From Micromonospora carbonacea (GTDB lineage Bacteria > Actinomycetota > Actinomycetes > Mycobacteriales > Micromonosporaceae), in the NCBI RefSeq assembly GCF_014205165.1, contig NZ_JACHMZ010000001.1:248001-312000 (forward strand): 64,000 nt of DNA. Reading direction: 5' to 3'. The notes under the pieces are model-generated. The model did no database searches. It saw only the letters and a list, made by a program, of their open reading frames with translations, and was not told the origin of the DNA. Below, piece by piece: positions 1,056 through 63,585 of this stretch (positions are counted from its first letter, which is position 1; each line of letters starts with the position of its first letter). Both the position numbers and the translations under genes were made by a program.

Positions 1056-2729
1056 ATGACGGAGACCCCGCATCCCGAGTACGACAAGCACGCCGACACC
1101 CTGCACCGGGCGCTGACCGCGATCACGGAGCGCGGGTACTGGTCCGCCTATCCCGAGTCACCCAGCCCCCGGGTGTACGGCGAGACCGCCGCCGCCGACG
1201 GCAAGGCCGCCTTCGAGGCGTACCTGGGCGGCGACTTCCCGCTCGACCAGCCGGGCAGCGGCGACCGGGTCGCCACCGAGGCCAGCCCCTTCGGGCTGGA
1301 GCTGAACGTGAGCTACCCGCACCCGGGCGTCGACGAACTGGTGGCCGCCGCCTCCGCCGCCCTGCCCGCCTGGCGCGACGCCGGCCCGCAGGCCCGCGCG
1401 GGCGTCTGCCTGGAGATCCTCGACCGGCTGCACAGACACGTCTTCGAGCTGGCCAACGCGGTGCAGTTCACCAGCGGCCAGGCGTTCGTGATGGCCTTCC
1501 AGGCCGGCGGCGCGCACGCGCTGGACCGCGCCCTCGAAGCGGTCGCCTACGCGTACGCGGAGATGACCCGCCACCCGGGGACGGCCGGCTGGGAGAAGGC
1601 CGCCGGCAAGGGCGACCCGCTGCGGATGACCAAGACGTTCCACGTGGTGCCGCGCGGGGTGGCCCTGGTGATCGGCTGCAACACCTTCCCGACCTGGAAC
1701 TCCTACCCCGGGCTGTTCGCCTCGCTGGTCACCGGCAACCCGGTGGTCGTCAAGCCGCACCCCCGCGCGGTGCTGCCGCTCGCGATCACCGTGAAGTACG
1801 CCCGCGAGGTGCTCGCCGAGGCCGGCTTCGACCCCAACCTGGTGCTGCTCGCTCCCGAGGCCCCCGGCGAGCGGCTCGCCTCCACCCTCGCCCTGCACCC
1901 GGCCGTGAAGATCGTCGACTTCACCGGCTCCACCGAGTACGGCGACTGGCTGGAGGCCAACGCCCGGCAGGCGACGGTCTACACGGAGAAGGCCGGCCTG
2001 AACGCCGTGGTGATCGACTCCACCGACGACTTCGCGGGGATGTGCCGCAACCTCGGCTTCACGCTGACCCTCTACAGCGGCCAGATGTGCACCACCTCGC
2101 AGAACATCCTCATCCCCGCCGGGGGCATCGACACCGACCAGGGGCACAAGAGCTTCGACGAGGTGGCCGCCGGGATCGCCGCCGTCGTGGGCAAGCTCAC
2201 CGCCGACCCGGCCCGGGGCGTCGAGCTGACCGGCGCGATCGTCAACGACGGGGTGCTGGAACGCCTCGACGAGGTCACCAAGGTCGGAGCGGCGGTGCTG
2301 GAGTCGCGTACCGTCGAGCACCCCACCTTCCCCGGCGCGGTGGTGCGGACGCCGACCATCGTCAAGCTGGCCGCCGCCGACACCGCGACGTACGGCCGGG
2401 AGTGGTTCGGGCCGATCTCGTTCGTGATCGCCACCGACTCCACCGCGCACAGCCTGGAGCTCCTGCGCGCCACCGTGGGCGAGTCCGGGGCGCTGACCGC
2501 CGCCGTCTACTCGACCGACCCGGCGGTGCTGGACGCGGCCGAGGCGGCGGCGATCGACGTCGGCGTGCACCTGTCGTGCAACCTGACCGGCGGCGTCTTC
2601 GTCAACCAGTCGGCGGCGTTCTCCGACTTCCACGGCAGCGGCGCCAACCCGGCGGCGAACGCGGCGCTGACCGACGGCGCGTACGTGGCCAACCGGTTCC
2701 GCATCGTCCAGAGCCGCCGCCCCGCCTGA
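1056..2729 (+). CDS. paaN: PaaN-type aldehyde dehydrogenase of phenylacetate degradation
   Basis: A 557-aa protein of the aldehyde dehydrogenase superfamily matching the phenylacetic-acid-degradation PaaN group over its full length. The catalytic Cys is in SGQMCTTSQN (about residue 345) and the general-base Glu in EKAGLNAV (about residue 311). GNPVVVKPHPRAVLPLAI is the cofactor-binding region. By family it would oxidise the semialdehyde formed by ring opening of phenylacetyl-CoA epoxide. No other paa gene is nearby, so the pathway role is inferred. ATGs at 1044 and 1047 are in frame. 1056 is preferred because CATGAT lies 7 bases upstream, resembling the leaderless promoters of this window. 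The stop codon forms the first bases of the repeat at 2727. Confidence 0.85.
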   Translation: MTETPHPEYDKHADTLHRALTAITERGYWSAYPESPSPRVYGETAAADGKAAFEAYLGGDFPLDQPGSGDRVATEASPFGLELNVSYPHPGVDELVAAASAALPAWRDAGPQARAGVCLEILDRLHRHVFELANAVQFTSGQAFVMAFQAGGAHALDRALEAVAYAYAEMTRHPGTAGWEKAAGKGDPLRMTKTFHVVPRGVALVIGCNTFPTWNSYPGLFASLVTGNPVVVKPHPRAVLPLAITVKYAREVLAEAGFDPNLVLLAPEAPGERLASTLALHPAVKIVDFTGSTEYGDWLEANARQATVYTEKAGLNAVVIDSTDDFAGMCRNLGFTLTLYSGQMCTTSQNILIPAGGIDTDQGHKSFDEVAAGIAAVVGKLTADPARGVELTGAIVNDGVLERLDEVTKVGAAVLESRTVEHPTFPGAVVRTPTIVKLAAADTATYGREWFGPISFVIATDSTAHSLELLRATVGESGALTAAVYSTDPAVLDAAEAAAIDVGVHLSCNLTGGVFVNQSAAFSDFHGSGANPAANAALTDGAYVANRFRIVQSRRPA

Positions 2730-2789
2730 GGTGCAAGGAGGGGCCCCTTGTTAACGCTTTCCGTTGTACAAGGGGCCCCTGCAAACACC
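2727..2789 (+). repeat. Family-1 palindromic repeat, copy R1
   Basis: A 13-bp perfect inverted repeat, AGGGGCCCCTTGT / ACAAGGGGCCCCT, surrounds a GTTAACGC core. The left end reads TGAGGTGCAAGGAGGGG and its TGA is the paaN stop codon. The copy lies between convergent genes (paaN and the GNAT gene ending at 2796), so it could act as a bidirectional terminator. It has no T-tract. Confidence 0.9.
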
Positions 2790-2795
2790 CCCGCC

Positions 2796-3389
2796 TCAGG
2801 CCGGCCGGCGCATCTGTAGTTCGCGCAGGGCGGGGAGCCTCGGGTGCGGGACCCGCACGCCCGTGTCGACGAAGCCCAGCCTCCGGTACGCCCGGTAGGC
2901 GCGGTCGTTGCCGACGACCACCTCCAGCATCAGCTCCGGCCGACCGCACTCGCGGGACCAGGCGGCGACCCCCTCGATCAGCGCGGCGAGCAGCCCGGTG
3001 CCGCGCCGGGCCGGCGTGACGTAGACGGCGTAGACGACGGTGAGGCCGGGTTCGTCCGCCGAGATCGTCCCGCCGGCGTGCCCGACGAGCCGCCCGGCGG
3101 GGCCGCCCGGCCGGTCCGCGCCGGGGTCGGCGACGAACTGGGCGGTGTGCCGGCCGCTGGCGACCGACGCGACGCGGGCCGCGTACTCGGCGTGCGGGCG
3201 GGCGGCGGCCTCCGCCAGGGTCTCCAGGAAGGCCAGCGGCGCGTCGGCGAGCATCTCCAGCCGCAGCGCCCGCATCCGCGCCGCGTCCGGCAGGGTCAAC
3301 CGGCGTACGTCGACTGCCGGCGCGGCGGTGTCGGCCGTCCCCGTCGGGGCGCTGCCCGGGTCGGTCGGCGGGCGGGAACCTGCTGTCAT
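2796..3389 (-). CDS. GNAT family N-acetyltransferase
   Basis: A 197-aa single-domain GNAT enzyme. Residues 1-25 are a disordered Pro/Ala-rich leader. The fold starts at VRRLTLPDAARMRAL and contains the acetyl-CoA motif VTPARRGTGLLAALI and the C-terminal NDRAYRAYRRLGF. It transfers an acetyl group from acetyl-CoA to an amine, and the acceptor is unknown. It is convergent with paaN across repeat R1. The start at 3389 is the first ATG of the open frame. A shorter version starting nearer the fold cannot be excluded. Confidence 0.8.
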   Translation of the reverse strand: MTAGSRPPTDPGSAPTGTADTAAPAVDVRRLTLPDAARMRALRLEMLADAPLAFLETLAEAAARPHAEYAARVASVASGRHTAQFVADPGADRPGGPAGRLVGHAGGTISADEPGLTVVYAVYVTPARRGTGLLAALIEGVAAWSRECGRPELMLEVVVGNDRAYRAYRRLGFVDTGVRVPHPRLPALRELQMRRPA

Positions 3390-3489
3390 CCCGCATACCT
3401 ATCGCAGTGATGGCCGCCTATGCCGCACCGGGTTGAGGTCGGTCCGTTATAGCCCTATTTGTGGTCGTGCGCCGTCGTCACTCCTCGTG

Positions 3490-3495
3490 TAGCGT
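3490..3495 (+). promoter_or_regulatory. Possible -10 box of cspA
   Basis: TAGCGT lies 118 bases before the cspA start. If used, it would give a leader of about 110 nt, in keeping with the long 5' UTRs of cold-shock genes in other bacteria. No clear -35 was identified, so this is only a candidate. Confidence 0.3.
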
Positions 3496-3613
3496 GCGAT
3501 TTCGGTCACTGGTTTCCCGGTCGGCGCAGACGGGTGAAACCGGTGTTCCCGGGGCCGCCGGTTCCGTCGGCGTACCCGCTCGTGGAAGGCCGCGCGACGT
3601 TAGGAAGTGCACC

Positions 3614-3817: not shown

Positions 3818-3831
3818 CGCCCCGACCGGTT

Positions 3832-3851: not shown

Positions 3852-6664
<2,813 letters not shown>

Positions 6665-7166: not shown

Positions 7167-7298
7167 CGCGGCCTCCTCACCTCGACGGTAGGTGACCGTC
7201 GATGCCGGGGCGGCCGAACGGCGCTATCCGGCCCGGTGCCCGTTTCGCCCGCCGCCGGGGCGAGGATCGCGGGGCCGCCGCCGGGGCGCGGGGCGCGA

Positions 7299-7353
7299 GG
7301 TGAGAAGGGGACCCCTCTCTACCGTATGCGTTAACAAGGGGCCCTTCCTTACC
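7299..7353 (-). repeat. Family-1 palindromic repeat, copy R2
   Basis: On the minus strand it reads TAAGGAAGGGCCCCTTGTTA, then ACGCATACGG and a right arm AGGGGTCCCCTTCTCACC. The conserved end starts 4 bases after the stop of the subtilase gene. Subtype with an ATACGGTAGAGA centre, like R10 and R11. Confidence 0.88.
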
Positions 7354-7355
7354 GC

Positions 7356-9881
7356 TCAGCGGGCCGCGCGGACAGCGGCGTACGCGTCGACCAGGCCCGC
7401 CCCGCTGATGTTCGCGTCCCCGCCGCAGGCGTCGGCCGGGTCGCGGGAGGCGTACGTCGCCCCGGCCGGGACGGCGGTGTCGCGCAGGATCCGGCGGGTG
7501 CGCTCCAGGTCGCCGACCAGCGTCGGGTTCGCCGACCACATCAGCGCCACCACGCCCGCGACCTGCGGGGCGGCCATCGACGTGCCGTCGAGGGTGGCGT
7601 AGCCGCCGCCCGGCATCGCGGAGAGCACCCCCACGCCCGGGGCGACCACGTCCGGCTTCGCCGCGCCGGGCACCGGCCCCCGGCTGGAGAAGTCGGCGAC
7701 CTGGCGGTCCCGGTCGGTCGCCCCGACGGTGAACACGTCCGGGTACGTCGCCGGCGGATCCTCGATCGACCGGCAGTACGGCCCGGTGTTGCCGGCCGCC
7801 GCGACGACGAAGATGCCCGCCGCGTCCAGCGCGTCGGTTGCCGGCCGCAGCGCCGCCGGGTCGCAGCCCTCGATCGGCGGGCAGCCCCACGAGTTCGTCA
7901 GCACCTGGGGGGCCCGCTCGGGCCGCCCGTCGGTGAACGGGTCGCCGCCGGCCGGGAACGGGGCCAGCATGAACTGGAGGCAGTCCAGGTAGCGCGCCGG
8001 ACTGCCGAGGTTGCGGTCGAGGTTGACGCAGCCGACCCAGCTCGCCCCGGGGGCCACCCCGATCCCGTCCCGCCCGACGGCGCTGCCCGTCGTGTGGGTG
8101 CCGTGGCCGCCCTGGTCGGTCGGCGCGCGGGTGTGGTCCCACGGGTCGTACCAGGAGTCGTCGCCGCCGCGGAAGCCGCCGGCCAGCGCCGGGTGCCGAC
8201 CGTCCACCCCGGAGTCGGAGCTGCCCACCACGATGCCGGCCCCGGTGACCCCGAGCTGCGACCAGACCTGGTCGGCGCGGAGCAGGGAGACGTTCCACGC
8301 CGGCCCGGAGGGGGCCGCCTGGTCGCCCCGGCTGGTCGGCGCGGGGGCCGGCAGCGGGCGCAGCCGCTGGCTCAGCAGCACCCGGTCCACCTCCCGCCGG
8401 CCCGACAGCCAGGCCCGGACCGCCGGCCCGCCGTCCACCTCGATCGCGTTGACCAGGTAGTACGGCGTCGGGCCGAGCCCCAGCCGGGTCAGGTCGCGGC
8501 GCAGCCCCGCCTGGGTGCGTTCGGCGGTTTCCACCAGCCGCCGGTAGACCTCGCGGGCGCGGGCGTCCCGGCCCGCCTGGCCCGTCCCGCCGGTGGGCAC
8601 GCCGCTCAGGTCGGCCTGCTCGCGCAGCACCACGAGCAGCCGTTCGCCGTGCAGGCCGGGCTGGCCGGGGCCGAGGTGGACCAGCGCCGCCCCGGCGAGC
8701 AGCACGCCGACGGTCGCCACCGCCACCGGCCGGCTCGGCGCGTGCCCGTTCGGGCGGGCCAGCAGCACGCCGTACACGATCGCCAGGAGCGCGGCCACCG
8801 CGAGCCCGCCGGCGGCGGCGACCGCCACCCAGAACGGGACGTCGCGGGTGGCCGCCAGGAGCAGGGTGATCTCCTCCGGGTCGGCGAACGCCAGTGGCCC
8901 GAACGCGGCGAGCCCGACCAGCCAGCGCGCGGGCGCGGGGCCGACCGGCCCGCCGGAGCGCAGCGCGGGCGCCTGGAGGGCGGCCAGCGCGAAGCCGAGC
9001 GGGGGCAGGGTCAGCAGGGCGGGCAGTTGCGCGCCGGACTGCCCGGTGCCGGCGGCGAGCAGCAGCAGCGTCACCCCGGCCACCAGGCCGCCGACCAGCA
9101 CCAGCCGCGCCGGCCGGTGCGGCGGCCCGCCCGCGAGGCGCGCCCAGAACCGGGCGTCGAGCAGTGCCCCGGCGAGGACACCGACGGCCGCGGCGGCCGC
9201 CGCCGCGAGCACGGTCTCCAGCAGCCCGCCGAGCGCGCCGAACCACGCCCAGGGCAGCAGCGTCGCCAGCCCGGCGGCCACCGCCAGCCAGGTCACGGCG
9301 GGTGGGGCCGCCGGGACGGTCCCGCGCGGACCGGCCGGGGCGGTGGGCGCGGCGTGGTCGTGCGGGCGGTCGGGCCCGGCGGGCGGGGCGGGGTCGGCCG
9401 GGCGGCCGGCGGCCGGCGGCGTCGACGCGGGCGCGGGCGCGGGGCCCCGGACCAGCCGGGGCAGCACCACGGCGAGCAGGACCGCCGTCGCCGCCAGCGC
9501 GGCCAGGTACGCCTCGTGGTGCACCGGTGGCAGGGCGCGCAGGCCGGTGAGCGCGCCGAGGGCGAGCAGCCCGCCGAGCCAGGCCCGGCCGGTGGCCCGG
9601 ACGGCCCCCGAGCGGGGCAGCAGGGCCAGCAGCAGCGCCGGCACCCCGGCCAGCAGCACCGTCACGACGGCGACCACCGGCCACAGCCAGACCACCCGGT
9701 CCAGGCCGGTGGCGAGCCGGACCTGGTCGGCCAGCCAGCCGACCAGCTCGGCCGGCGCGACGACCGCGACCGTCCAGCACCCGGCCACCGCCGCCGCGAC
9801 CACGGGCCACGGGCCGGGGCGGGCCGGCGGGACGGCCACGGGCGACAGAAAGGGACGACCTGCGTACGGACCGACCTCCAT
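7356..9881 (-). CDS. Subtilisin-like (S8) serine protease with a polytopic membrane N-terminal half
   Basis: An 841-aa protein. Residues 1 to about 440 hold roughly ten hydrophobic membrane segments broken by a Pro/Ala-rich loop near 150-190. Residues about 530-841 form a peptidase S8 domain with Asp556 in SSDSGVDG, His593 in GGHGTHTTG, oxyanion Asn in AAAGNTGP and Ser768 in GTSMAAPQVAG. By family it is an endopeptidase, and the orientation relative to the membrane is not determinable here. The frame is open far upstream (to 12233), but ATG 9881 is chosen because TACTGT lies six bases before it. A multi-pass domain fused to a subtilase is unusual. Divergent from glpD. Confidence 0.88.
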   Translation of the reverse strand: MEVGPYAGRPFLSPVAVPPARPGPWPVVAAAVAGCWTVAVVAPAELVGWLADQVRLATGLDRVVWLWPVVAVVTVLLAGVPALLLALLPRSGAVRATGRAWLGGLLALGALTGLRALPPVHHEAYLAALAATAVLLAVVLPRLVRGPAPAPASTPPAAGRPADPAPPAGPDRPHDHAAPTAPAGPRGTVPAAPPAVTWLAVAAGLATLLPWAWFGALGGLLETVLAAAAAAAVGVLAGALLDARFWARLAGGPPHRPARLVLVGGLVAGVTLLLLAAGTGQSGAQLPALLTLPPLGFALAALQAPALRSGGPVGPAPARWLVGLAAFGPLAFADPEEITLLLAATRDVPFWVAVAAAGGLAVAALLAIVYGVLLARPNGHAPSRPVAVATVGVLLAGAALVHLGPGQPGLHGERLLVVLREQADLSGVPTGGTGQAGRDARAREVYRRLVETAERTQAGLRRDLTRLGLGPTPYYLVNAIEVDGGPAVRAWLSGRREVDRVLLSQRLRPLPAPAPTSRGDQAAPSGPAWNVSLLRADQVWSQLGVTGAGIVVGSSDSGVDGRHPALAGGFRGGDDSWYDPWDHTRAPTDQGGHGTHTTGSAVGRDGIGVAPGASWVGCVNLDRNLGSPARYLDCLQFMLAPFPAGGDPFTDGRPERAPQVLTNSWGCPPIEGCDPAALRPATDALDAAGIFVVAAAGNTGPYCRSIEDPPATYPDVFTVGATDRDRQVADFSSRGPVPGAAKPDVVAPGVGVLSAMPGGGYATLDGTSMAAPQVAGVVALMWSANPTLVGDLERTRRILRDTAVPAGATYASRDPADACGGDANISGAGLVDAYAAVRAAR

Positions 9882-17961: not shown

Positions 17962-19260
17962 TCAGCCCAGCTCGGCGAGGGCGGCCAGCAGGCGGTCGAC
18001 GTCGCGCGCCGTGCTGCCCAGGCCGAGGCTCGCCCGCAGGGCGGTCGGCGGCAGGTCCGCCCGGCCGCTGCGGGCCGCCGCCTCGGCGAGCAGCCGCCGG
18101 GCCAGCGGGTGTGCGCAGAACAGCCCGTCGCGGACCCCGACGTCGTGCCGGGCCGCCAGCTCCGCCGCCACCTCGCCCGAGTCCCGGCCGGCGACGACGA
18201 ACGAGACGATGCCGACGCGGGGCGCGTCCGGGCCGAAGGTACGCAGCTCCACCACGTGCGGCAGGGCGGCCAGGCCCTGCCGGAGCCGGGCCAGCAGGGC
18301 CTGCTCCCGGGCGTGCAGCTCGTCCCGGTCGGCCTCGGCGAGCGCCGCGCAGACCGCCGCGAGGGCGACCGCGCCGAGCAGGTTGGGGGTGCCCGCCTCG
18401 TGCCGGGCCGGGCCGGCGGCCCAGCGCACCTCGTGCGTGGCGTCCCCGACGTGGCTGGTCGCGCCCCCACCCGCCAGGTACGGCGGGGCCGCGTCGAGCC
18501 AGTCGCCCCGCCCGAGCAGCACCCCCGCGCCGAACGGCGCGTACAGCTTGTGCCCGGAGACCGCCAGGTAGTCGACGCCCAGCGCGGCGACGTCGACCGG
18601 GGCGTGCGGGGCGAGCTGGGCGGCGTCCACGGCGATCCGGGCGGCGTGCCGGCGGGCGACGGCCGCCAGCTCGGCCACCGGCCAGCGTTCCCCGGTCACG
18701 TTGCTCGCCCCGGTGACCGCCACCAGCACCGGCGGGCCGGCGGGGCGGCTCGGGCCCCCGGCCCCCGGCGTCGCGTCCCGGCGCAGCTCGGTCAGCGCCG
18801 CGTCCAGGGCCCGGACCGCCTCGCCGGGGCCCGCCGGCACGGGCAACCGCACCGAGCCGCGCGGCCAGGGCAGCAGGTTGGCGTGGTGCTCGCCGGCGAA
18901 CGTCACCACCGTCGTCCCGGTGGGCAGGGCGCGGGCCAGCAGGTTCAGCGCGTCCGTCGTGTTGCGGGTGAAGATCACGTGGTCGCCGGGGCGGGCGCCG
19001 AAGAAGTCGCCGACGGTCTGCCGGGCCCGCTCGTAGGCGAGGGTGCAGCGCCGCGACAGCGCGCCCGCGCCCCGGTGCACGCTGGCGTACCAGGGGAGCA
19101 GCTCGGCCACGGCGTCGGCCGCCGCCCGCGCGCACGGCGCGCTGGCCGCGTGGTCCAGGTTGGTCTGGCCCGGCACGCCGAGCACGTCGAGCGGCCGCGA
19201 CGACGCCGGCGCGGTCCGCGCGGGCAGCGGGGCGGGCGGGGGTACGAGGGTGACGGTCAT
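17962..19260 (-). CDS. Class-V aminotransferase / cysteine desulfurase-like PLP enzyme under a SAM riboswitch
   Basis: A 432-aa PLP enzyme. Lys238 in VSGHKLYAPFG binds the cofactor, VDAAQLAPHAPVDV carries the Asp and Gln that hold the ring, and TNLDHAASAPCA is the usual N-terminal motif. No clear mobile-loop catalytic Cys in an SSGSACT-type context was seen. The matching place reads VRDGLFCAHP, so a Cys is present but the context is atypical. A desulfurase, or a selenocysteine-lyase-like or other C-S lyase activity, is possible. The SAM riboswitch in its leader ties it to methionine or cysteine metabolism. RBS GGAGG precedes the ATG. Confidence 0.88.
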   Translation of the reverse strand: MTVTLVPPPAPLPARTAPASSRPLDVLGVPGQTNLDHAASAPCARAAADAVAELLPWYASVHRGAGALSRRCTLAYERARQTVGDFFGARPGDHVIFTRNTTDALNLLARALPTGTTVVTFAGEHHANLLPWPRGSVRLPVPAGPGEAVRALDAALTELRRDATPGAGGPSRPAGPPVLVAVTGASNVTGERWPVAELAAVARRHAARIAVDAAQLAPHAPVDVAALGVDYLAVSGHKLYAPFGAGVLLGRGDWLDAAPPYLAGGGATSHVGDATHEVRWAAGPARHEAGTPNLLGAVALAAVCAALAEADRDELHAREQALLARLRQGLAALPHVVELRTFGPDAPRVGIVSFVVAGRDSGEVAAELAARHDVGVRDGLFCAHPLARRLLAEAAARSGRADLPPTALRASLGLGSTARDVDRLLAALAELG

Positions 19261-19317
19261 GCCGACCTCCGGGTCCGGGGACCCCGGGTGACGCCACCGG
19301 AGACGGGGTCCGCGCTT

Positions 19318-19426
19318 GCCCAGCGCCGGACGGGGCTGGGCCCGGTCATCACCCGGGGCACCCCACCGCGAACTCGACGAGGGTTGCCGGCCAGCAAGCC
19401 GGGGCTTGACGCTGGCGCTCGTGACC
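19318..19426 (-). ncRNA. SAM riboswitch (SAM-I/SAM-IV type) in the aminotransferase leader
   Basis: Read on the minus strand, the leader has GGTCACGAGCGCCAGCG, then GGCTTGCTGGCCGGCAACC, GCGGTGGGGTGCCCCGGGT and the closing GATGACC (core 19344-19426). These match the conserved SAM-binding core of the actinobacterial S-box/SAM-IV class. A GCCCAGC / GCTGGGC hairpin follows at 19318-19341, as in SAM-IV. The remaining 57 bases to the ATG contain GGGGTCCCCGG, which could pair near the RBS. SAM should switch off the downstream gene. Assignment to SAM-IV rather than SAM-I rests on the 3' hairpin. Confidence 0.87.
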
Positions 19427-21153: not shown

Positions 21154-21261
21154 ACGCTCCCCTCCCCAGGGTGCTGGACGTGCCTGGCTTCCCGTCGCGG
21201 ACGGCCGCAAACGAAGCAGCCCCCGCCAGGCCGCGCACGGTGCGCCCCGGGGGAGGAGTGT

Positions 21262-21312
21262 CAAGAGGGGGCCCCTGCTATGCAGAAAGCGTTAACAGGG
21301 GGCCCTTCCTTA
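21262..21312 (-). repeat. Family-1 palindromic repeat, copy R3
   Basis: On the minus strand it reads TAAGGAAGGGCCCCCTGTTA, then ACGCTTTCTGCATAGCAG and GGGCCCCCTCTTG. The TAA is the stop codon of the GroES-like gene. It lies between two minus-strand genes. Confidence 0.9.
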
Positions 21313-21657
21313 CAGGTAGAGGCCGGTGGAGCCGGTGGTCTCCGCCTCGACGCGTTCGGCGGCCACGGCGTGCACGTCCCGCTCGCGCAGCAGCACGTAG
21401 CCCCGGCCCTGGAGCTCGACCTCGGAGCGGTCGTCGGGGTCGAAGAGGACGCGGTCGCCGGAGACGATCGAGCGGACGTGGGGACCCACGCCGACGGCGG
21501 TCGCCCAGGCGAGGCGCTTGCCGACGGCGGCGGTCGCCGGGATCACGATGCCGGCGGTGGAGCGGCGCTCACCCTCGCTCCCCTCCAACCGCACCAGCAC
21601 CCGGTCGTGCAGCAGACGGATCGGCAGGCCGGAGTCGAGGCTGTCATCGGCGGTCAC
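21310..21657 (-). CDS. GroES-like co-chaperonin
   Basis: A 115-aa protein of the chaperonin-10 fold: LPIRLLHDRVLVRLEG, STAGIVIPATA, KRLAWATAVGVGPHVRSIVS, GDRVLFDPDDRSEVE and the final YVLLRERDVHAV. It is longer than typical GroES (about 97 aa) at both ends, and the mobile loop reads EGSEGERRSTAGIVIP. It could cap the solitary GroEL encoded 15 kb away or act as a diverged paralogue. GTG 21657 is supported by TACCGT seven bases upstream. No groEL and no CIRCE element is adjacent. Its TAA stop is part of repeat R3. Confidence 0.85.
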   Translation of the reverse strand: MTADDSLDSGLPIRLLHDRVLVRLEGSEGERRSTAGIVIPATAAVGKRLAWATAVGVGPHVRSIVSGDRVLFDPDDRSEVELQGRGYVLLRERDVHAVAAERVEAETTGSTGLYL

Positions 21658-28985: not shown

Positions 28986-29046
28986 CGACCGCCCGCCGCG
29001 CGCGACGTCCGGCGGTCTCACCCGCCCGGCGCGCGCCGGCCCGGCG

Positions 29047-29106
29047 GTTAGGAAGGGCCCCCTGTACAACAGAAGGCGTTAACAGGGGGCCCTTCCTTGC
29101 ACCTCA
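29047..29106 (-). repeat. Family-1 palindromic repeat, copy R4
   Basis: On the minus strand: TGAGGTGCAAGGAAGGGCCC, then CCTGTTAACGCCTTCTG and TACAGGGGGCCCTTCCTAAC. The TGA is the stop codon of the oxidoreductase gene. It lies between convergent genes. Confidence 0.92.
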
Positions 29107-30987: not shown

Positions 30988-31024
30988 GCGCCCTCGCCCT
31001 GCCTGCCCGCCCGGCGGCCCGCCG

Positions 31025-31084
31025 GGTTAGGAAGGGCCCCCTGTGCAACAGAAAGCGTTGACAGGGGGCCCTTCCTTGCACCTC
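31025..31084 (-). repeat. Family-1 palindromic repeat, copy R5
   Basis: On the minus strand: GAGGTGCAAGGAAGGGCCCC, then CTGTCAACGCTTTCTGT and CACAGGGGGCCCTTCCTAAC. It starts 8 bases after the pstB stop, between convergent NUDIX and pst genes. Confidence 0.9.
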
Positions 31085-31092: not shown

Positions 31093-31869
31093 TCAGCCGA
31101 AGCGGCCCGTGATGTAGTCCTCGGTCTTCTTCTGGCTCGGGTTGCTGAAGATCTTCTGGGTGTTGTCGTACTCGATGAGGCGGCCCGGGTCGCCGGTCTT
31201 CTCGATCGAGAAGAAGGCCGTGCGGTCGGAGACGCGGGCGGCCTGCTGCATGTTGTGCGTGACGATGATGATGGTGAACTTGTCCTTGAGCTGGAACATC
31301 AGATCCTCGATCGCCAGCGTGGAGATCGGGTCCAGCGCCGAGCACGGCTCGTCCATCAGCACCACCTGCGGCTCGACGGCGATCGTGCGGGCGATGCAGA
31401 GCCGCTGCTGCTGGCCGCCGGACAGGCCCGCGCCCGGCTTGCCGAGGCGGTCCTTCACCTCGTTCCACAGGTTCGCCGCGCGCAGCGAGTTCTCGGCCGC
31501 CTCGTCCAGGATCGACTTCTTGCGCACCCCGTTGAGCCGCAGCCCGGCCACCACGTTCTCGTAGATGCTCATGGTGGGGAACGGGTTGGGCCGCTGGAAG
31601 ACCATGCCGATCATCCGGCGTACGGCGGTGACGTCCACGTCGCGGTCGTAGATGTTCTGCCCGTCGATGGTGAGGTCGCCCTCGACGCGGGCGCCCGGCA
31701 GCACCTCGTGCATCCGGTTGATCGACCGAAGGAACGTCGACTTGCCGCAGCCGGACGGCCCGATGAGGGCGGTCACGGTCTTCGGCTCGACGGTCAGGTT
31801 GATGTTCTCGATCGCCTTGAAGCCGCCGTAGTAGGCGGTGACGTTTGTGGCGTCGACGCGCTTGGCCAT
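31093..31869 (-). CDS. pstB: Phosphate ABC transporter ATP-binding protein
   Basis: A 258-aa ATPase. Walker A is [10 protein letters not shown], the Q-loop VFQRPNPFP, the signature [13 protein letters not shown] and Walker [13 protein letters not shown], with the H-loop in VTHNMQQ. The PNPFP segment is typical of PstB. It powers high-affinity phosphate import with PstS, PstC and PstA. RBS GGAGG precedes ATG 31869. It is last in the pstSCAB operon, 20 bp after pstA, and ends at repeat R5. Confidence 0.97.
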
Positions 31870-41916: not shown

Positions 41917-42249
41917 ATGACTGCTCCCACCGCTCCTACCGCTGCCGGGTGCGCCGCGCCCGACCAGGCCGCCCCGCTGCCGGCGAGCCTGGACCTGGAG
42001 AAGGAGACCGTCATCACCGGCGCCGTCCGGTCCGAGGCGGGCGACACCGTCGCGGGCGCGTACGTCCGGCTGCTCGACTCGACCGGTGAGTTCACCGCCG
42101 AGGTGGTCACCTCGCCGGCCGGCCAGTTCCGGTTCTTCGCCGCCCCGGGCACCTGGACGCTGCGGGCGCTGTCCCGGCACGGCAACGGCGACACCACCGT
42201 GACGGCCGCGCGCGGCATCAACGAGGTAACGGTCACCGTAGCGCCCTGA
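41917..42249 (+). CDS. sseC: DUF1416 (SseC-like) protein
   Basis: A 110-aa protein. After an Ala/Pro-rich start with Cys12 comes a single beta-sandwich of the carboxypeptidase regulatory-like type: TVITGAVRSEAGDTVAGAYV and PAGQFRFFAAPGTWTLRALS. DUF1416 proteins are paired with sulfurtransferases throughout actinobacteria, so a role in sulfur transfer or carriage is inferred; biochemistry is not known to me. Same operon as the sulfurtransferase. Its stop codon is the first triplet of repeat R6. Confidence 0.9.
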   Translation: MTAPTAPTAAGCAAPDQAAPLPASLDLEKETVITGAVRSEAGDTVAGAYVRLLDSTGEFTAEVVTSPAGQFRFFAAPGTWTLRALSRHGNGDTTVTAARGINEVTVTVAP

Positions 42250-42309
42250 GGTGCAAGGAAGGGCCCCCTGTCAACGCTTTCTGTATAGGAAGGGCCCCCT
42301 CCTAACATC
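42247..42309 (+). repeat. Family-1 palindromic repeat, copy R6
   Basis: TGAGGTGCAAGGAAGGGCCC, then CCTGTCAACGCTTTCTG and TATAGGAAGGGCCCCCTCC. The TGA is the sseC stop codon. Copy R7 has nearly the same inner sequence. Confidence 0.92.
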
Positions 42310-42328
42310 TCGGCATCGCACGCGCATC

Positions 42329-50782: not shown

Positions 50783-51250
50783 GTGTCCGAGTCATCCCTC
50801 GCGGAAGTGCTCCGCGCCCGTGGGCTGCGGCTGACGGCGCAGCGGCAGCTGATCCTCCAGGCGGTGCTGGATCTCGGGCACGCCACACCGGAGCAGGTGC
50901 ACACCGCCGTGCGCGAGGTCGCCGCCGGGGTCAACATCACCACCATCTACCGCACGCTGGAGCTGCTGGAACGCCTCGGCCTGGTGACCCACACCCACCT
51001 GTCGCACGGCTCGCCCACCTACCACGCGGCCGGCGAGCACCAGCACGTCCACCTGGTCTGCCGCGAGTGCGGCGCGATCGACGAGATCGACCCGGAGCTG
51101 CTCGGGCCGCTGGCCGACCGGCTGGTCGCCGAGCGCGGGTTCCGGGTGGACATCGGGCACGTGGCGCTGTTCGGCGTCTGCGGCCGGTGTGGGGAGGAGC
51201 CCGCGGGCGAAGGCGTTCCGGGCCGGGGCGAGGACGGGGAGCAGCAATGA
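50783..51250 (+). CDS. Fur-family metalloregulator (FurB/Zur-like)
   Basis: A 155-aa regulator. A winged-helix domain (RLTAQRQLILQAVLDLGHAT, NITTIYRTLELLERLGLVTH) is followed by the metal-binding half: HQHVHLVCREC and CGRCGEEP give two CxxC zinc knuckles, and EHQHVH with GHVALFG gives regulatory His. This suggests a Zur- or Fur-type sensor, and the metal cannot be fixed by eye. The stop overlaps the ygfZ start (ATGA), linking the two genes. Confidence 0.92.
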   Translation: MSESSLAEVLRARGLRLTAQRQLILQAVLDLGHATPEQVHTAVREVAAGVNITTIYRTLELLERLGLVTHTHLSHGSPTYHAAGEHQHVHLVCRECGAIDEIDPELLGPLADRLVAERGFRVDIGHVALFGVCGRCGEEPAGEGVPGRGEDGEQQ

Positions 51251-52353
51251 TCGACATCGCAGGCGCGGTGGCCACCGACGCCATCGACGAGGAGACCCGG
51301 GACCAGCCGGAGCCGGCGCACCGGGCGGCCGGGGTGCGGCCCGTCGCCGCCCACTACGGCGACCCGCTGCGGGAGCAGCGCGTCCTCGACACCGCCGTCG
51401 GCCTCGTCGACCGGTCACACCGGGGCGTCGTCGCCGTGCCCGGCGAGGAGCGCATCGGCTGGCTGCACACCCTCACCACCCAGCACCTCGCCGCCCTGGC
51501 CCCGGGCGAGGGCACCGAGCTGCTGGTGCTCTCCCCACACGGCCACGTCGAGCAGCACGCCATGGTCGCCGAGGACGGCGACACCACCTGGCTCGACACC
51601 GAGCCCGGGGCCACCGGGGGCCTGCTGACGTACCTGGAGAAGATGCGGTTCTTCAGCAAGGTCGAGCCGCGCGACGCCACCGCCGAGCACGCCCTGCTCT
51701 CGCTGGTCGGCCCCGAGGCGACCGGGGCGCTCGCCACGCTGGGCGTGACCGGGCTGGCCGCGCCCGACGCCGTCGCGGTGCCCGGCCCGAAGTTCCGCGC
51801 CGGCGAACTGCCGCCCCGCCCCACCGTCCGCTACGCTGTCGCGCCGCTGCCCGGCGGCGGGTGGGCCCGCCGGGGCCCGCTGGGCGTGGACCTGCTGGTG
51901 CCCCGGCCCGCCATGGACCGGGTCGTCGCCGAGCTGCGCGCGGCCGGGGTGCCGCCGGTGGGGCTGTGGGCGTACGAGGCGATCCGGGTGGCCGCCCGGC
52001 GGGCCCGGGTCGGGGTGGACACCGACCACCGGACCATCCCGGCCGAGGTGGACCTGATCGCCCCGGCGGTGCACCTGGACAAGGGCTGCTACCGGGGCCA
52101 GGAGACGGTGGCCCGGGTGCACAACATGGGTCGGCCGCCGCGTCGCCTCGTCCTGCTGCACCTGGACGGGGTGACCACCGACCGGCTGCCGGCGGCCGGC
52201 ACGCCGGTGACCCTCGACGGCCGGGCGGTCGGCTTCGTCGGCACGGCGGTGCTGCACCACGAGCTGGGCCAGGTCGCGCTGGCGGTGCTGAAGCGCAACG
52301 TCCCCGACGACGCCCGCCTGCTGGTCGGCGAGTCGGCCGCCGCCATCGAGTAA
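51247..52353 (+). CDS. ygfZ: Folate-binding YgfZ/GcvT-like protein
   Basis: A 368-aa protein with the aminomethyltransferase-type tripartite fold and the YgfZ signature KGCYRGQET. It starts VRPVAAHYGDPLREQRVLDT and has AVGLVDRSHRGVVAVPGEER. YgfZ uses tetrahydrofolate in making or repairing Fe-S enzymes. Its coupling with a Fur-type regulator fits a role in metal or Fe-S homeostasis. The TAA stop is part of repeat R7. Confidence 0.93.
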   Translation: MIDIAGAVATDAIDEETRDQPEPAHRAAGVRPVAAHYGDPLREQRVLDTAVGLVDRSHRGVVAVPGEERIGWLHTLTTQHLAALAPGEGTELLVLSPHGHVEQHAMVAEDGDTTWLDTEPGATGGLLTYLEKMRFFSKVEPRDATAEHALLSLVGPEATGALATLGVTGLAAPDAVAVPGPKFRAGELPPRPTVRYAVAPLPGGGWARRGPLGVDLLVPRPAMDRVVAELRAAGVPPVGLWAYEAIRVAARRARVGVDTDHRTIPAEVDLIAPAVHLDKGCYRGQETVARVHNMGRPPRRLVLLHLDGVTTDRLPAAGTPVTLDGRAVGFVGTAVLHHELGQVALAVLKRNVPDDARLLVGESAAAIE

Positions 52354-52406
52354 GGAAGGGCCCCCTGTTAACGCTTTCTGTATAGGAAGGGCCCCCTCCT
52401 AACACC
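52351..52406 (+). repeat. Family-1 palindromic repeat, copy R7
   Basis: TAAGGAAGGGCCCCCTGTTA, ACGCTTTCTGTATAGG, then AAGGGCCCCCTCCTAACACC. The TAA is the ygfZ stop codon. It lies ahead of a gene on the same strand. Confidence 0.92.
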
Positions 52407-52539
52407 GCAGCCGGCGCGCAGTCGCACCGCAGCCGGCGTGCGGGCGGGGAGTGAGCGGCGCGCGGCGTTGCGACCGGCTGGCGGACGGGCGCGTCCGCTG
52501 GGGGAGCGCGCGCCGTCGACCGGGCCCCCGCCGGGCGTC

Positions 52540-53510: not shown

Positions 53511-54470
53511 GTGAGCAAGACGTACTCCGGTGGCGTGCCGCTGGCCGAGGTGGTCCGTTCCGGGTTCGTGGAGGGGCTGCACCGCGGCTCGGTGGTGGTG
53601 CTCGACGCGGCCGGCGCGACGGTCGCCGCCGCCGGGGACGTGGCGTCCCCGGTCTTCCCCCGCTCGGCCAGCAAGCCGATGCAGACGGTCGGCATGCTCC
53701 GCGCCGGGCTGCCGCTGACCGACCCGGCCGACGTGGCGATCGTGTCGGCCAGCCACGCCGGGGAGGAGTTCCACGTGGCCCGGGTCGGCGCGCTGCTGGC
53801 CGGTGCCGGGCTGGACGAGTCCGACCTGGGCTGCCCGCCCGACCTGCCGATGGGCGAGCTGGCCCGGGAGGCGGTGCTGCGCGCGGGCGGCGGGCCCACC
53901 CGGGGCCGGATGAACTGCTCCGGCAAGCACACCGGCATGCTGCTCACCTGCCTGGCCGCCGGCTGGCCCCGGGCGGGCTACCGGCAGCCGGAGCACCCGT
54001 TGCAGCGCGCGCTGCGCTCGGCCGTCCAGGAGTGCGCCGGGGAGCCGGTGGCGGCGGTCGGGGTGGACGGCTGCGGCGCGCCGGTGCTGGCCGTGTCGCT
54101 GACCGGGCTGGCCCGCGCGTACCTGCGGCTGGTCTCGGCCGGGCCGGGCTCGCCCGAGCGGGCCGTCGCGGACGCCATGCGGGCGCACCCGGAGCTGGTC
54201 GGCGGTACCTGGGCCGAGGACAGCCGGCTGATGCGCGGCCTGCCCGGCGCGCTCGCGAAGATCGGCGCGGAGGGGGTGATCGCCGCCGCGCTCCCGGGGG
54301 TCGGCGCGGTCGCCCTGAAGGTCGACGACGGGGCTTCGCGGGCCCGGATGCCGGTCCTGGTCTCCGCGCTGCGCCGGCTGGGCGTCCGGGCGCCCGTCCT
54401 CGACGAGTACGCCGAGCTGCCGCTGCTCGGCGGCGGGATCCCGGTCGGGGCGGTCCGCCCGGTCTGGTGA
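53511..54470 (+). CDS. L-asparaginase II (ReAV-type, class 3)
   Basis: A 319-aa protein related to the Rhizobium-type asparaginases. It has the two SxxK motifs (FPRSASKPMQ and NCSGKHTGM) that carry the catalytic Ser-Lys pairs, and VGVDGCGAPV with the zinc-binding Cys region. It should hydrolyse L-asparagine to aspartate and ammonia in the cytosol, with no signal peptide. Alone between BKACE and the hydrolase. Confidence 0.9.
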   Translation: MSKTYSGGVPLAEVVRSGFVEGLHRGSVVVLDAAGATVAAAGDVASPVFPRSASKPMQTVGMLRAGLPLTDPADVAIVSASHAGEEFHVARVGALLAGAGLDESDLGCPPDLPMGELAREAVLRAGGGPTRGRMNCSGKHTGMLLTCLAAGWPRAGYRQPEHPLQRALRSAVQECAGEPVAAVGVDGCGAPVLAVSLTGLARAYLRLVSAGPGSPERAVADAMRAHPELVGGTWAEDSRLMRGLPGALAKIGAEGVIAAALPGVGAVALKVDDGASRARMPVLVSALRRLGVRAPVLDEYAELPLLGGGIPVGAVRPVW

Positions 54471-54476
54471 CGGCGA

Positions 54477-54534
54477 TAGGAAGGGCCCCTTGTTAACAGA
54501 CGTCTGTTAACAAGGGGCCCTTCCTTGCACCTCA
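54477..54534 (-). repeat. Family-1 palindromic repeat, copy R8: perfect 48-bp palindrome
   Basis: Bases 54478-54525 are a perfect 48-bp palindrome centred on ACGT in CAGACGTCTG, built from AGGAAGGGCCCCTTGTTAAC and its complement. The conserved end TGAGGTGCAAGG on the minus strand begins with the hydrolase stop. It sits between convergent genes. Confidence 0.95.
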
Positions 54535-57354: not shown

Positions 57355-57361
57355 TGCCGGC

Positions 57362-58563: not shown

Positions 58564-58581
58564 CGCCGGCCGCCGGGGGTG

Positions 58582-60276: not shown

Positions 60277-60335
60277 CCGCCGAGATGCCGCTGACCGCCG
60301 GGACACCGCTGAGCGCCGACTACCGCTGACCGCCG
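60265..60335. repeat. 18-bp tandem repeat across a convergent gene junction
   Basis: Four units of the GACTACCGCTGACCGCCG type (one is 17 bp) span the end of the SDR gene (stop in unit 1) and the end of the WYL gene (stop in unit 4). Each unit contains TGA, so stop codons are repeated with the unit. Confidence 0.8.
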
Positions 60336-61339
60336 CCCGCCCGCCGGTGACCCTCCCGTCCGCCGCCCGGCCCGCCGTACAGCGCGGCGAGCCGGGCGGC
60401 GGCAGCGGCCACCCGCCCCCGCAGCTCCGGCGGATCCAGCACCTCCGCCTCCGGCCCGAGCCGCAGCGCCAGGTGGTACGCCACGTCGACGGACTCGATC
60501 GGCAGCCAGGTGACCACCCAGCCGTCCCCGTCGGGCGCACCGGCGGCGGCCGTCGCCTCGGCGTACGCGAAGGGGGCCTCCGGGGCGCTGCGGAGCTCGC
60601 GCAGGCCGGCGGGGCTCAGCCGGACGCGGACCCGGGTCCGCTGCATGCTGCGCAGGAACGCCTCGGCCTGCCCGCGCCAGTATCCGCCGAGGTCGAAGCG
60701 CTCGTCGCGGTCGAACGTCTCCCCGCCCGGGGCCACGTCGACCACCCGGTCGACCCGGTACGTGCGCGTGTCGTCGCCGACGCGGGCGACCAGATACCAG
60801 GTCCCGCTCTTGAGCACGAGCCCGTACGGCTCGACCCGCCGGACGACCTCGCCGTCGCCGCGCCGGTAGCGCAGCTCGACGACCCGGTCGCCCCACACGG
60901 CGCGGGCCAGCTCGGCCAGCCGGGGCGGCGGCGACGCGTCGCGGAACCAGCCCGGCACGTCCAGGTGGAACCGCTGCCCGGCGCGGGCGGGCGCGTCGCG
61001 CAGCGCGGGCGGCAGCGCGGCCAGCACCTTCAGTTCGGCCGAGGCGACCGCGTCGGCCAGCCCCATGTCGCCCGCCGGCCCGGGCAGCCCGGCGAGGAAC
61101 AACGCCTCCGCCTCGTCCCGGGTGAGCCCGGTCAGCCGGGTCCGGTAGCCGCCGAGCAGCCGGTAGCCGCCGGCCCGGCCCCGATCGGCGTAGACGGGCA
61201 CCCCGGCGGCCGACAGGGCCAGCACGTCCCGGTAGACCGTGCGCTCGGAGACCTCCAGCTCACGGGCCAGCTCGGCCGCCGTCATCGCCCCCCGCGCCTG
61301 GAGCAGCAGCACCACCGAGATCAACCGCGAGGCTCGCAC
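60320..61339 (-). CDS. YafY-type HTH regulator with WYL domain
   Basis: A 339-aa protein. An N-terminal winged helix (LQARGAMTAAELARELEVSE, RTVYRDVLALSAAGVPVYAD) is followed by a WYL domain (residues about 140-220: ELRYRRGDGEVVRRVEPYGL, LKSGTWYLVARVGDDTRTY) and the WCX tail. It probably senses a ligand or nucleic acid through WYL and controls a nearby or remote gene. GTG 61339 has CACAAT six bases upstream, placed right against repeat R9. Confidence 0.93.
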   Translation of the reverse strand: MRASRLISVVLLLQARGAMTAAELARELEVSERTVYRDVLALSAAGVPVYADRGRAGGYRLLGGYRTRLTGLTRDEAEALFLAGLPGPAGDMGLADAVASAELKVLAALPPALRDAPARAGQRFHLDVPGWFRDASPPPRLAELARAVWGDRVVELRYRRGDGEVVRRVEPYGLVLKSGTWYLVARVGDDTRTYRVDRVVDVAPGGETFDRDERFDLGGYWRGQAEAFLRSMQRTRVRVRLSPAGLRELRSAPEAPFAYAEATAAAGAPDGDGWVVTWLPIESVDVAYHLALRLGPEAEVLDPPELRGRVAAAAARLAALYGGPGGGREGHRRAGGGQR

Positions 61340-61345
61340 CCGCCT

Positions 61346-61351
61346 ATTGTG
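61346..61351 (-). promoter_or_regulatory. Possible -10 of the WYL gene (CACAAT)
   Basis: CACAAT on the minus strand, six bases before GTG 61339. Repeat R9 begins at the next base upstream, so R9 would supply the -35 zone. Confidence 0.45.
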
Positions 61352-61405
61352 TAAGGAAGGGCCCCCTGTTAACGCCTGCGGTATAGAAGGGAACCCTTCT
61401 CACCC
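61352..61405 (+). repeat. Family-1 palindromic repeat, copy R9 (in a divergent promoter)
   Basis: TAAGGAAGGGCCCCCTGTTA, ACGCCTGCGGTATAG, then AAGGGAACCCTTCTCACC. It is the only copy between divergent genes, so it cannot be a terminator for either. Its conserved end faces the WYL promoter. Confidence 0.9.
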
Positions 61406-61446
61406 CGCTCCGCGTTGCTTGGCGGGGCGGACGGGACAGGCGCGGT

Positions 61447-61452
61447 TAGGCT
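61447..61452 (+). promoter_or_regulatory. Leaderless -10 of the EI24 gene
   Basis: TAGGCT eight bases before GTG 61461. Confidence 0.6.
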
Positions 61453-61460
61453 CAGCGGTC

Positions 61461-62276
61461 GTGAACGTACCCAGCAGCATCACCGCGCCGGTGACCGGCG
61501 CCGTCGGCCGATTCTTCTCCGGGGTCGGGCTGCTCCTGCGCGGCATCGGCCTGTACGTCCGCAGCCCCGGCCTGATGCTGCTCGGCATCGTGCCGGCGCT
61601 GATCTCCGGAACCCTCTTCGTGGCCGCCTTCGCCACCCTCGTCTACTTCGTGGACGACCTGGCCGCGCTGGTCACCCCGTTCGCCGACGACTGGTCGCGC
61701 ACCGCCCGCAGCCTCGTCCGGGTCGTCGCCGGCCTGGCCTTCCTCGGCGTCGGCGGGCTGCTCGGGGTGCTCACCTTCACCGCCGTGACCCTGGCCATCG
61801 GCGATCCGTTCTACGAGAAGATCTCCGAGCGGGTCGAGGAGCGTTACGGCGGCACGCCCGGCGCGGTGGAGGCGCCGTTCTGGGCGTCGCTGCGTCGCAG
61901 CATCGTCGACTCGCTGCGGCTGGTCGCGATCTCCGTACTCGTGGGTATTCCGCTCTTCGCGGCCGGCTTCATCCCGGTGGTCGGGCAGACCGTCGTGCCG
62001 GTGATCGGGGCGGCGGTCGGCGGCTGGTTCCTCGCGCTGGAGCTGGCGGGGGCCCCGTTCTACCGGCGCGGCATGCGGCTGCCCGACCGCCGGGCGCTGC
62101 TCAAGGCCGACCGGCCGACGACGCTGGGCTTCGGGGTGGCGGTCTTCGTGTGCTTCCTGATCCCGCTCGGCGCGGTGCTGGTCATGCCGGCGGCGGTGGC
62201 CGGCGCTACCCTGCTCACCCGCCGCGCGATGGGCCAGTCCATCGAGCCGCCGGGCCGCCCCGTCGAGAAGCGGTGA
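61461..62276 (+). CDS. EI24-domain (CysZ-like) membrane protein
   Basis: A 271-aa protein with about five helices and the EI24/DUF540 pattern: RSPGLMLLGIVPALISGTLF, then GDPFYEKISERVEERYGGTP and GWFLALELAGAPFYRRGMRL. E. coli CysZ, the nearest characterised relative, moves sulfate. The role here is unproven. GTG 61461 is set by a leaderless -10. Confidence 0.87.
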   Translation: MNVPSSITAPVTGAVGRFFSGVGLLLRGIGLYVRSPGLMLLGIVPALISGTLFVAAFATLVYFVDDLAALVTPFADDWSRTARSLVRVVAGLAFLGVGGLLGVLTFTAVTLAIGDPFYEKISERVEERYGGTPGAVEAPFWASLRRSIVDSLRLVAISVLVGIPLFAAGFIPVVGQTVVPVIGAAVGGWFLALELAGAPFYRRGMRLPDRRALLKADRPTTLGFGVAVFVCFLIPLGAVLVMPAAVAGATLLTRRAMGQSIEPPGRPVEKR

Positions 62277-62313
62277 CGTGGAGGTCGACCCTGCCGCGTG
62301 CACGCCCCGCCAG

Positions 62314-62372
62314 AGGTGGTGAGAAGGGAACCCCTCTCTACCGTATGCGTTAACAAGGGGCCCCTCCTTACG
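62314..62372 (-). repeat. Family-1 palindromic repeat, copy R10
   Basis: On the minus strand: TAAGGAGGGGCCCCTTGTTA, ACGCATACGGTAGAGAGG and GGTTCCCTTCTCACC. Its conserved end faces the start of the gene at 62407. The R10-R11 likeness extends into the flank (GAGGTGGTGAGAAGGG). Confidence 0.88.
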
Positions 62373-62374
62373 CC

Positions 62375-62380
62375 TATCCT
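62375..62380 (+). promoter_or_regulatory. Possible -10 of the secreted-protein gene
   Basis: TATCCT three bases after repeat R10 would give a leader of about 20 nt with an AAGGG RBS. Confidence 0.45.
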
Positions 62381-62406
62381 TAATCGGACGAAAGGTGCGA
62401 TAAGGG

Positions 62407-62940: not shown

Positions 62941-63035
62941 CCGGCCCGCCAGGTGCGACCCCACCGCCGGGGCGGGGGCGTCGCCGGCGACCGGTGCCTG
63001 TTCCGCCGGGGCAACCCCGCCGGCGGAGCGCACCG

Positions 63036-63452
63036 TCAGCTGCCGGGGTCCCGGACGGCGGCGACCGCCTCCACCTCGACGAGCTGGTCGTCGTAGCCGA
63101 GCACGGTCACCCCGAGCAGGGTGCTCGGCGGCTCGTGGCCGCCGAACGCGTCCCGGACCACCTCCCACGCGGCCACCAGGTCGGCCTGCCGGGACGACGC
63201 CACGTACACCGTGGTCTTGACGACGTCGGCGAGCCGCGCCCCGGCGGCGGCGAGCGCGACCTCCAGGTTCGCCATCACCTGCCGGGCCTGCGCCGCCGGG
63301 TCGCCCGGCGCGACCGTACGCCCGGCGGCGTCCAACGGGCACGCGCCGGCGGCGAACACCAGTCGGGCGGGCGGGGCGACGGTCGCCGCGTACGCGTACT
63401 CGGCGACGTCGGAGAGTTCGGACACGCGCACCAGCGCCGCGGGATCGCTCAC
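63036..63452 (-). CDS. RidA/YjgF-family protein
   Basis: A 138-aa protein starting VSDPAALVRVSELSDVAEYA, with FAAGACPLDAAGR, the subunit-interface ARQVMANLEVALAAAGARLA and TTVYVASSRQADL, and ending VEVEAVAAVRD. RidA trims reactive enamine/imine intermediates; relatives differ. The arginine seen in canonical RidA active sites (a usual C-terminal R) was not confirmed. GTG 63452 is set by TAGCGT seven bases upstream. The frame open to 63509 is rejected. Confidence 0.88.
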   Translation of the reverse strand: MSDPAALVRVSELSDVAEYAYAATVAPPARLVFAAGACPLDAAGRTVAPGDPAAQARQVMANLEVALAAAGARLADVVKTTVYVASSRQADLVAAWEVVRDAFGGHEPPSTLLGVTVLGYDDQLVEVEAVAAVRDPGS

Positions 63453-63459
63453 CCGCGCG

Positions 63460-63465
63460 ACGCTA
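63460..63465 (-). promoter_or_regulatory. Leaderless -10 of the RidA gene
   Basis: TAGCGT on the minus strand, seven bases before GTG 63452. Confidence 0.7.
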
Positions 63466-63527
63466 GCCCGCCCCCGGACCCCGCCGCCACGCGACAACCG
63501 CCCCGCCACGCGCTCACGCGCCCGCCG

Positions 63528-63585
63528 GAGGTGGTGAGAAGGGGGCCCCTCTCTACCGTATGCGTTAACAAGGGGCCCCTCCTTA
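63528..63585 (-). repeat. Family-1 palindromic repeat, copy R11
   Basis: On the minus strand: TAAGGAGGGGCCCCTTGTTA, ACGCATACGGTAGAGAGG and GGCCCCCTTCTCACCACC. The TAA is the stop of the LacI-type gene. Confidence 0.9.

Follow-up and report, generated by a model that had tools for sequence, protein, structure and literature searches.

Does the short palindromic repeat that recurs between genes of Micromonospora carbonacea keep a fixed place relative to the stop codon of the neighbouring gene, and what might it do there? The question is raised by a window of 64,000 nt (74.8% GC), the whole stretch of DNA analysed, which covers positions 248001-312000 of the 7.53-Mb genome and contains 11 copies of a repeat of about 60 bp, GGTGYAAGGARGGGCCCC..TTAACGC..GGGGCCCYTYCTAACACC. 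The best matches of one protein encoded in the window are from Micromonospora, the nearest named strain being Micromonospora sp. ATCC 39149 (95% identity). An earlier note on this window had described the copies as modules docked at stop codons. This description is borne out in 1.264 Mb of the genome and in three other genomes (G025, U21 and G035): Docking of the conserved repeat end at stops is confirmed, and it is not confined to the window. Most copies occupy spacers containing the end of a gene, with their 5' edge at the stop.

The genome-scale sample comprised 1.264 Mb (248001-712000 and 4.8-5.6 Mb), in which a hidden Markov model found 77 copies. Genes were called with our own codon-model script instead of a standard gene finder, so that stops are exact and starts approximate. 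Relative to the copy, the neighbouring genes are convergent in 35 cases, run in the same direction in 21 and are both opposite in 13; six copies adjoin no gene end and two lie inside a coding sequence (CDS), leaving 75 of 77 extragenic. Of the 77 copies, 56 have a gene reading into their conserved end, and 46 of these 56 stops end within -12 to +3 nt of the AAGGA motif. Comparison with a shuffled control had been proposed in the earlier note. When the 75 intergenic copies were re-placed within their own spacers, with position and orientation random and a gene overlap of up to 10 nt allowed, the mean was 12.1 and the maximum 23, so docking is more frequent than by chance. Two exact registers account for 33 stops (14 at -5, 19 at +2); random placement yielded a mean of 1.6 and a maximum of 6 in 2000 rounds. 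The 5' edge of the repeat lies within -8 to +7 of a stop in 46/56 cases, the 3' edge in 6/48, and 31 of 35 convergent spacers have the 5' edge closer to the stop, the other four the 3' edge. The polarity claimed earlier holds for edge distance; orientation alone is weak in one-sided spacers and not significant (21 copies pointing with both genes, 13 against them, P 0.23). Docking within -12 to +3 recurs in G025 (11/12), U21 (14/16) and G035 (14/19, with register +2 five times and -5 three times). Register +2 is also the most frequent one (8) in a further set of 16 copies at other loci that have a reading-in gene, although many of these copies belong to one orthologous gene.

The two registers correspond to TGA|GGTGYAAGG (-5) and to the TAA of GTAAGG (+2). 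TAA is the stop of 19/44 docked genes compared with 33/901 others, because YAAGGA with Y = T yields TAA. The boundary of the element follows from the 21 copies that have no reading-in gene. In these, positions -5 to -2 are G, G, T and G in 47%, 57%, 42% and 90%, respectively, and positions -8 to -6, where TGA would stand, are C, C and G in 52%, 38% and 38%. Since GGTG persists in such copies and TGA does not, TGA lies outside the element, whose 5' end is better set at GGTGY. Thus, TGA abuts the element, and TAA is part of its terminal repeat (Y = T).

In the window, all 11 copies described earlier were recovered, and nine conserved ends face a gene that reads into them. R1 (2728-2791, +) follows an aldehyde dehydrogenase gene (1044-2729), whose TGA at 2727-2729 abuts GGTGCAAGGA in register -5. 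The same register is found at R4 (29042-29105, -) in a convergent spacer with the TGA (29104-29106) of a Gfo/Idh/MocA oxidoreductase gene, at R6 (42248-42312, +) with that (42247-42249) of a DUF1416 gene (41917-42249), and at R8 (54471-54533, -), which lies between convergent genes for asparaginase II (stop 54468-54470, +) and an alpha/beta hydrolase (TGA 54532-54534, -). The TGA of these four copies had been taken for the first triplet of the element; it does directly precede GGTGCAAGGA in each, as an adjoining codon. R2 (7295-7356, -) had been set apart from the copies that begin with the stop, with TGA and 4 nt before TAAGG. The spacing is correct, the separation is not: The stop (7356-7358) of its subtilase gene (7356-9839, -) ends 5 nt before AAGGA (TGA GCGGTAAGG), the register of R1. 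Register +2, with the TAA of TAAGGA as the stop, was likewise correctly recognised at R3 (21256-21316, -; TAA 21310-21312 of a Cpn10/GroES gene, 21310-21657, -), R7 (52347-52408, +; TAA 52351-52353 of a GCV_T-like gene, 51247-52353) and R11 (63528-63589, -; TAA 63583-63585 of a gene with a LacI-type sugar-binding domain, 63583-63999, -, cut by the window end). At R5 (31021-31083, -), an ABC-transporter ATPase gene (31093-31869, -) converges with a NUDIX gene, and 15 nt lie between the end of the ATPase stop and AAGGA; TGA and 8 nt precede GAGGTGC, as previously described. The conserved end of R9 (61349-61408, +) adjoins no stop, as this copy occupies the divergent spacer between a WYL regulator gene (60320-61315, -) and a CysZ/EI24-like gene (61461-62276, +). 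R10 (62313-62375, -) turns its 3' edge instead of its conserved end towards the stop of the latter gene.

The consensus of the repeat, derived from 68 aligned rows of box matches and inspection, is GGTGYAAGGARGGGCCCCYTGTTAACGC, about 10 nt, and AGAAGGGGCCCCTTCTTAACACC. Each half contains a self-palindromic box (GGAAGGGCCCCYTNTTAAC), and the box starts are 31 nt apart in 11/11 same-strand box pairs among the matches listed. As the two halves can also pair with each other, RNA of either strand would form a long GC-rich hairpin. R8 is a nearly perfect palindrome (folding z -10.3 against dinucleotide shuffles). By inspection, the unit has terminal inverted repeats, GGTGYAAGGARGGG / ..TCCTAACACC, loosely kept at the 3' end. 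The 23-nt box pattern has 299 matches at up to 3 mismatches in the genome (reversed control: 0), which is not a copy number because second boxes and both strands of a palindrome may be counted. Exact box matches are unevenly placed: The 100 matches listed, which reach 5.88 Mb, include 40 in the first 1 Mb, 13 from 1.65 to 4.8 Mb and 35 from 4.8 Mb onwards. Both in-CDS copies (at 578366 and 582150) are read in the sole stop-free frame of the repeat. At U21 locus L286, an in-CDS copy also occupies an open frame, and the orthologue in BL4, the sister species of U21, has no insert. Two genes (626904-628046 and 636198-637283, -) enter the repeat and end at its inner TAA (TTAACGC), so that their last residues are repeat-coded; at locus L303, the BL4 orthologue retains a repeat-coded tail despite an eroded copy. 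A second intergenic inverted-repeat family around GATCTTGCA was seen in the relative G010 (L183-L202; 9 intergenic, 0 coding) and in M. carbonacea (11 intergenic, 2 coding). In an Rfam search of the window, the repeat had no match at gathering score. The only match was a SAM-IV riboswitch at 19307-19426 (-) with 100.9 bits, which ends shortly upstream of a called gene (17962-19260, -).

Did the repeat bring the stop, or was the stop there before? Orthologues were compared in G025 and in two relatives without intact copies, G010 and G031 (pairs below 60% identity dropped). The last codon position is the same for 15/19 docked genes in G010, 15/19 in G031 and 13/19 in G025; for undocked genes the values are 256/268, 231/246 and 235/245, respectively. 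Between U21 and BL4, 14 of 16 docked genes encode proteins of unchanged length, and the other two are shorter in U21 by 3 and 2 residues. Since the last codon of most orthologues lacking an intact copy has the same position, the place of the stop usually predates the repeat, and insertion at stops, or their creation by the repeat, does not hold as a rule. What appears to change often is the codon itself, judging from the aligned stops: The TAA of register +2 often stands where relatives use TGA or TAG. For seven such genes, a small number, G010 has TGA four times, TAG once and TAA twice, and G031 has TGA six times and TAA once; for four such genes of U21, BL4 has TAG, TGA, TGA and TGA. Undocked TAA stops are also poorly conserved (kept in 8/16 in G010 and 10/14 in G031).

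The distribution of the family is discontinuous. Among 37 genomes of the genus searched at up to 2 mismatches, 16 have 17-267 matches, five have 1-3 and 16 have none. On a one-gene tree with 53 rows and carriers defined by 10 or more matches, the carrier state changes 10 times, at least six changes being forced by well-supported branches, and it flips between sister species: U21, with 99 matches, lies inside a group of 11 non-carriers as the sister of BL4, which has 1 match. In 1.26 Mb of M. carbonacea, TTAACGC occurs 67 times and GGAAGGGCCCC 78 times between genes; neither string occurs in the intergenic DNA of 400 kb taken from each of G010 and G031. The relation of filled and empty sites was followed at 30 U21 loci, of which three were dropped, two as the second strand of a palindrome and one as a hit to a second box; the remaining 27 were aligned with BL4, where 26 sites were found by a joined-flank query. 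At least six of the 27 BL4 sites hold a copy that is recognisable by eye as eroded (L282, L287, L291, L302, L303 and L304), each with an altered TTAAC core, and further sites are empty (e.g. L275, L281, L293) or too divergent to judge. Old presence with subsequent loss is supported by the GCV_T-like locus of R7, which was compared across species: Several relatives with few or no matches keep TAAGG and an eroded core there (e.g. L084, L085, L117). Restriction at GTTAAC was considered as a cause of the loss and rejected, since this site is neither avoided nor enriched outside the elements (M. carbonacea 11 vs 11.7 expected, G010 2 vs 3.3, G031 4 vs 2.7).

What could a hairpin at these stops be good for? 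Among spacers of at least 40 bp, 34/140 convergent, 34/430 codirectional and 6/173 divergent ones hold a copy. In G010 and G031, where the stretches used for hairpin counts are free of copies, non-repeat hairpins follow 34/84 and 35/66 convergent stops and 1/72 and 4/81 operon-internal stops, respectively; in the corresponding counts for M. carbonacea and G025, some hairpins may be those of repeat copies that face the opposite gene. As copy-free relatives have other hairpins there, a hairpin closely following the stop belongs to the usual make-up of 3' ends in the genus, and the repeat would be a serial version of it. The preference for convergent spacers, together with unrelated hairpins following stops in relatives, leads to the explanation that we favour and rate slightly better than even: The repeat is a dispersed family of Micromonosporaceae, similar to repetitive extragenic palindromic (REP) sequences or miniature inverted-repeat transposable elements (MITEs), that acts as a bidirectional 3'-end hairpin at pre-existing stops. 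It is probably a reusable end-of-gene signal. Place and shape suggest that a docked copy terminates transcription or protects the mRNA; it would halt read-through between convergent genes, block 3' exonucleases, or both. Copies at other places might be lost because they are harmful, and exact docking might be tolerated or even favoured because the hairpin begins right where translation ends. The on/off pattern among species could arise if families keep their sharp sequence only in the presence of a factor that spreads or homogenises them and erode in lineages without it.

Several results weigh against this explanation. At the conserved end of 21/77 copies there is no reading-in gene, and six of these lie in divergent spacers. 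A fold distinctly better than that of dinucleotide shuffles (z below -2.5) was obtained for only 5/11 window copies; z lies between -2.1 and -0.2 for the remaining six. Covariation between the arms amounts to 15 double-changed cells, above the shuffled mean of 6.5 and below the shuffled maximum of 19. No T-tract was found after the hairpin in the copies, and when 41-56 kb (15 kb) were scanned with a standard terminator search, none of the three copies located there was detected. Canonical T-tract terminators are rare in high-GC actinobacteria. The fused stop and terminator of the earlier note agrees with the convergent-spacer bias but not with the missing T-tract, and a terminator function is putative. 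Finally, eroded remnants at orthologues of docked genes are not significant as a group (G010 P 0.21, G031 P 0.73), so that presence in a common ancestor is demonstrated for single sites only.

Insertion is best represented by one locus. At L281 (= L111), U21 has a copy followed by the native last codons and the native TGA, with an 8-bp direct repeat (ATCGACCC) on both sides, and BL4 and the other 10 non-carriers of the clade display a simple site. From this alignment, L281 looks like the clearest insertion site, with a new TAA ahead of the retained TGA; to this extent insertion at stops, proposed earlier, would hold for one U21 site. The retained native stop is the stronger sign, since an 8-bp match alone is expected by chance about once in 27 sites and proves little. 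Such a site is what would be expected of a non-autonomous transposon (MITE) that prefers stops, landing in or just before the stop and supplying a new TAA from its own end. The terminal inverted repeats (GGTG../..CACC), the high copy number, the filled/empty polymorphism between the close relatives U21 and BL4 and the patchy occurrence across the family, with 92 matches in Asanoa ishikariensis, point in the same direction, as does a slightly higher frequency of C-terminal shifts in docked genes (4/19 vs 12/268 in G010). A general target-site duplication is missing, however: Direct repeats of at least 8 bp flank 6/77 M. carbonacea copies (3.3 expected) and 2/27 U21 copies (1.06 expected), without a common register. 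Nor was an autonomous partner recognised: Among inverted arm pairs 1-3.4 kb apart in 1.66 Mb, none was recognised as an insertion sequence, the open reading frames between them not having been annotated one by one. Y1 transposase, the only transposase family searched, is absent from 14/16 genus genomes with at least 17 matches, and REP-associated tyrosine transposases (RAYT/Y1) were rejected as mobiliser on this ground. On balance, such a transposon is an unlikely explanation.

A more far-reaching version is decidedly doubtful. Here, a mobile element would land on the stop codon itself, keep the native T and add AA (TGA or TAG becoming TAA), leave the protein unchanged and place its hairpin at the point of ribosome release; it would be an exchangeable cassette of translation stop and transcript end, kept genome-wide by a trans-acting factor that species gain or lose.

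Still less probable is a translational device, in which the hairpin within the footprint of the terminating ribosome would slow release and lower output or mRNA life. The 46/56 stops close to AAGGA would suit it, and such an effect is reported for REPs of Escherichia coli within 15 nt of a stop, which stall ribosomes (PMC12306157). The convergent-spacer bias and the palindromic form are better suited to a job on two strands, and, counted from the first base of the stop, non-repeat hairpins begin later, at a median of 11-15 nt. A DNA-protein site (a nucleoid, recombination or uptake signal) found at gene ends only because spacers are free there is very improbable, as it predicts neither the two exact stop registers nor the one-sided polarity, although the spacing of the two boxes by 31 bp, roughly three helical turns, and the on/off behaviour of the whole family would agree with it.

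If the repeat is a bidirectional 3'-end hairpin, its interest lies in the coupling of two signals. The stop codon and the end of the transcript are commonly regarded as separate signals, and here a repeat fixes their spacing at dozens of genes. The U21/BL4 pair makes effects of hairpin position on release, read-through and mRNA life directly testable for high-GC actinobacteria, and the family would offer an example of an end-of-gene signal that is gained or eroded across a whole genome.

The open-access papers searched yielded no description of the repeat, and the earlier note knew of no element with this exact behaviour; papers matching the letter strings of the box were unrelated by title. 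Closest in behaviour is SPRITE (PMC3049150), likewise a short dispersed hairpin repeat that is enriched between convergent genes and near CDS 3' ends and was proposed to be a co-opted terminator. In contrast to our repeat, SPRITE has a U-rich tract (about 48% U) and belongs to a GC-poor host from another phylum, and exact stop registers are not mentioned in the part of that report used here (PMC3049150). Being palindromic, extragenic and present in high copy number, the repeat is a REP in the broad sense. It resembles REPs and bacterial interspersed mosaic elements, which occur in hundreds of extragenic palindromic copies, some within 15 nt of a stop (PMC12306157); among E. coli REP candidates only about 11% are that close (PMC12306157), compared with 46/77 within -12 to +3 here, and unlike REPs accompanied by RAYT, 14/16 carriers lack a Y1/RAYT-type transposase. 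DNA uptake sequence terminators of Neisseria and Pasteurellaceae are also high-copy hairpin-paired motifs after genes, common to a species and lost or altered among its relatives (PMC1852404, PMC2397512). In contrast to them, the box of our repeat is self-palindromic and occurs in a fixed 31-nt pair, and isolated copies of the uptake type are not scattered over the genes (TTAACGC: 67 intergenic, 5 coding in 1.26 Mb). Like Rickettsia palindromic elements (named in PMC10969869), a few copies lie within a CDS in an open frame, but this is rare here (2/77). With intrinsic terminators, the repeat shares a GC-rich hairpin downstream of a gene. In Streptomyces, a high-GC actinobacterium, long stable GC hairpins followed by few U are reported (PMC12207403); they are not one repeated sequence, and the median distance of transcript ends from the CDS is 66-76 nt (PMC12207403). 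Bacteria commonly have hairpins no more than 20 bases from a stop (PMC8355165), so that the nearness of the repeat to the stop is ordinary. The unusual feature is the pair of exact registers, with the stop codon against or inside the repeat.

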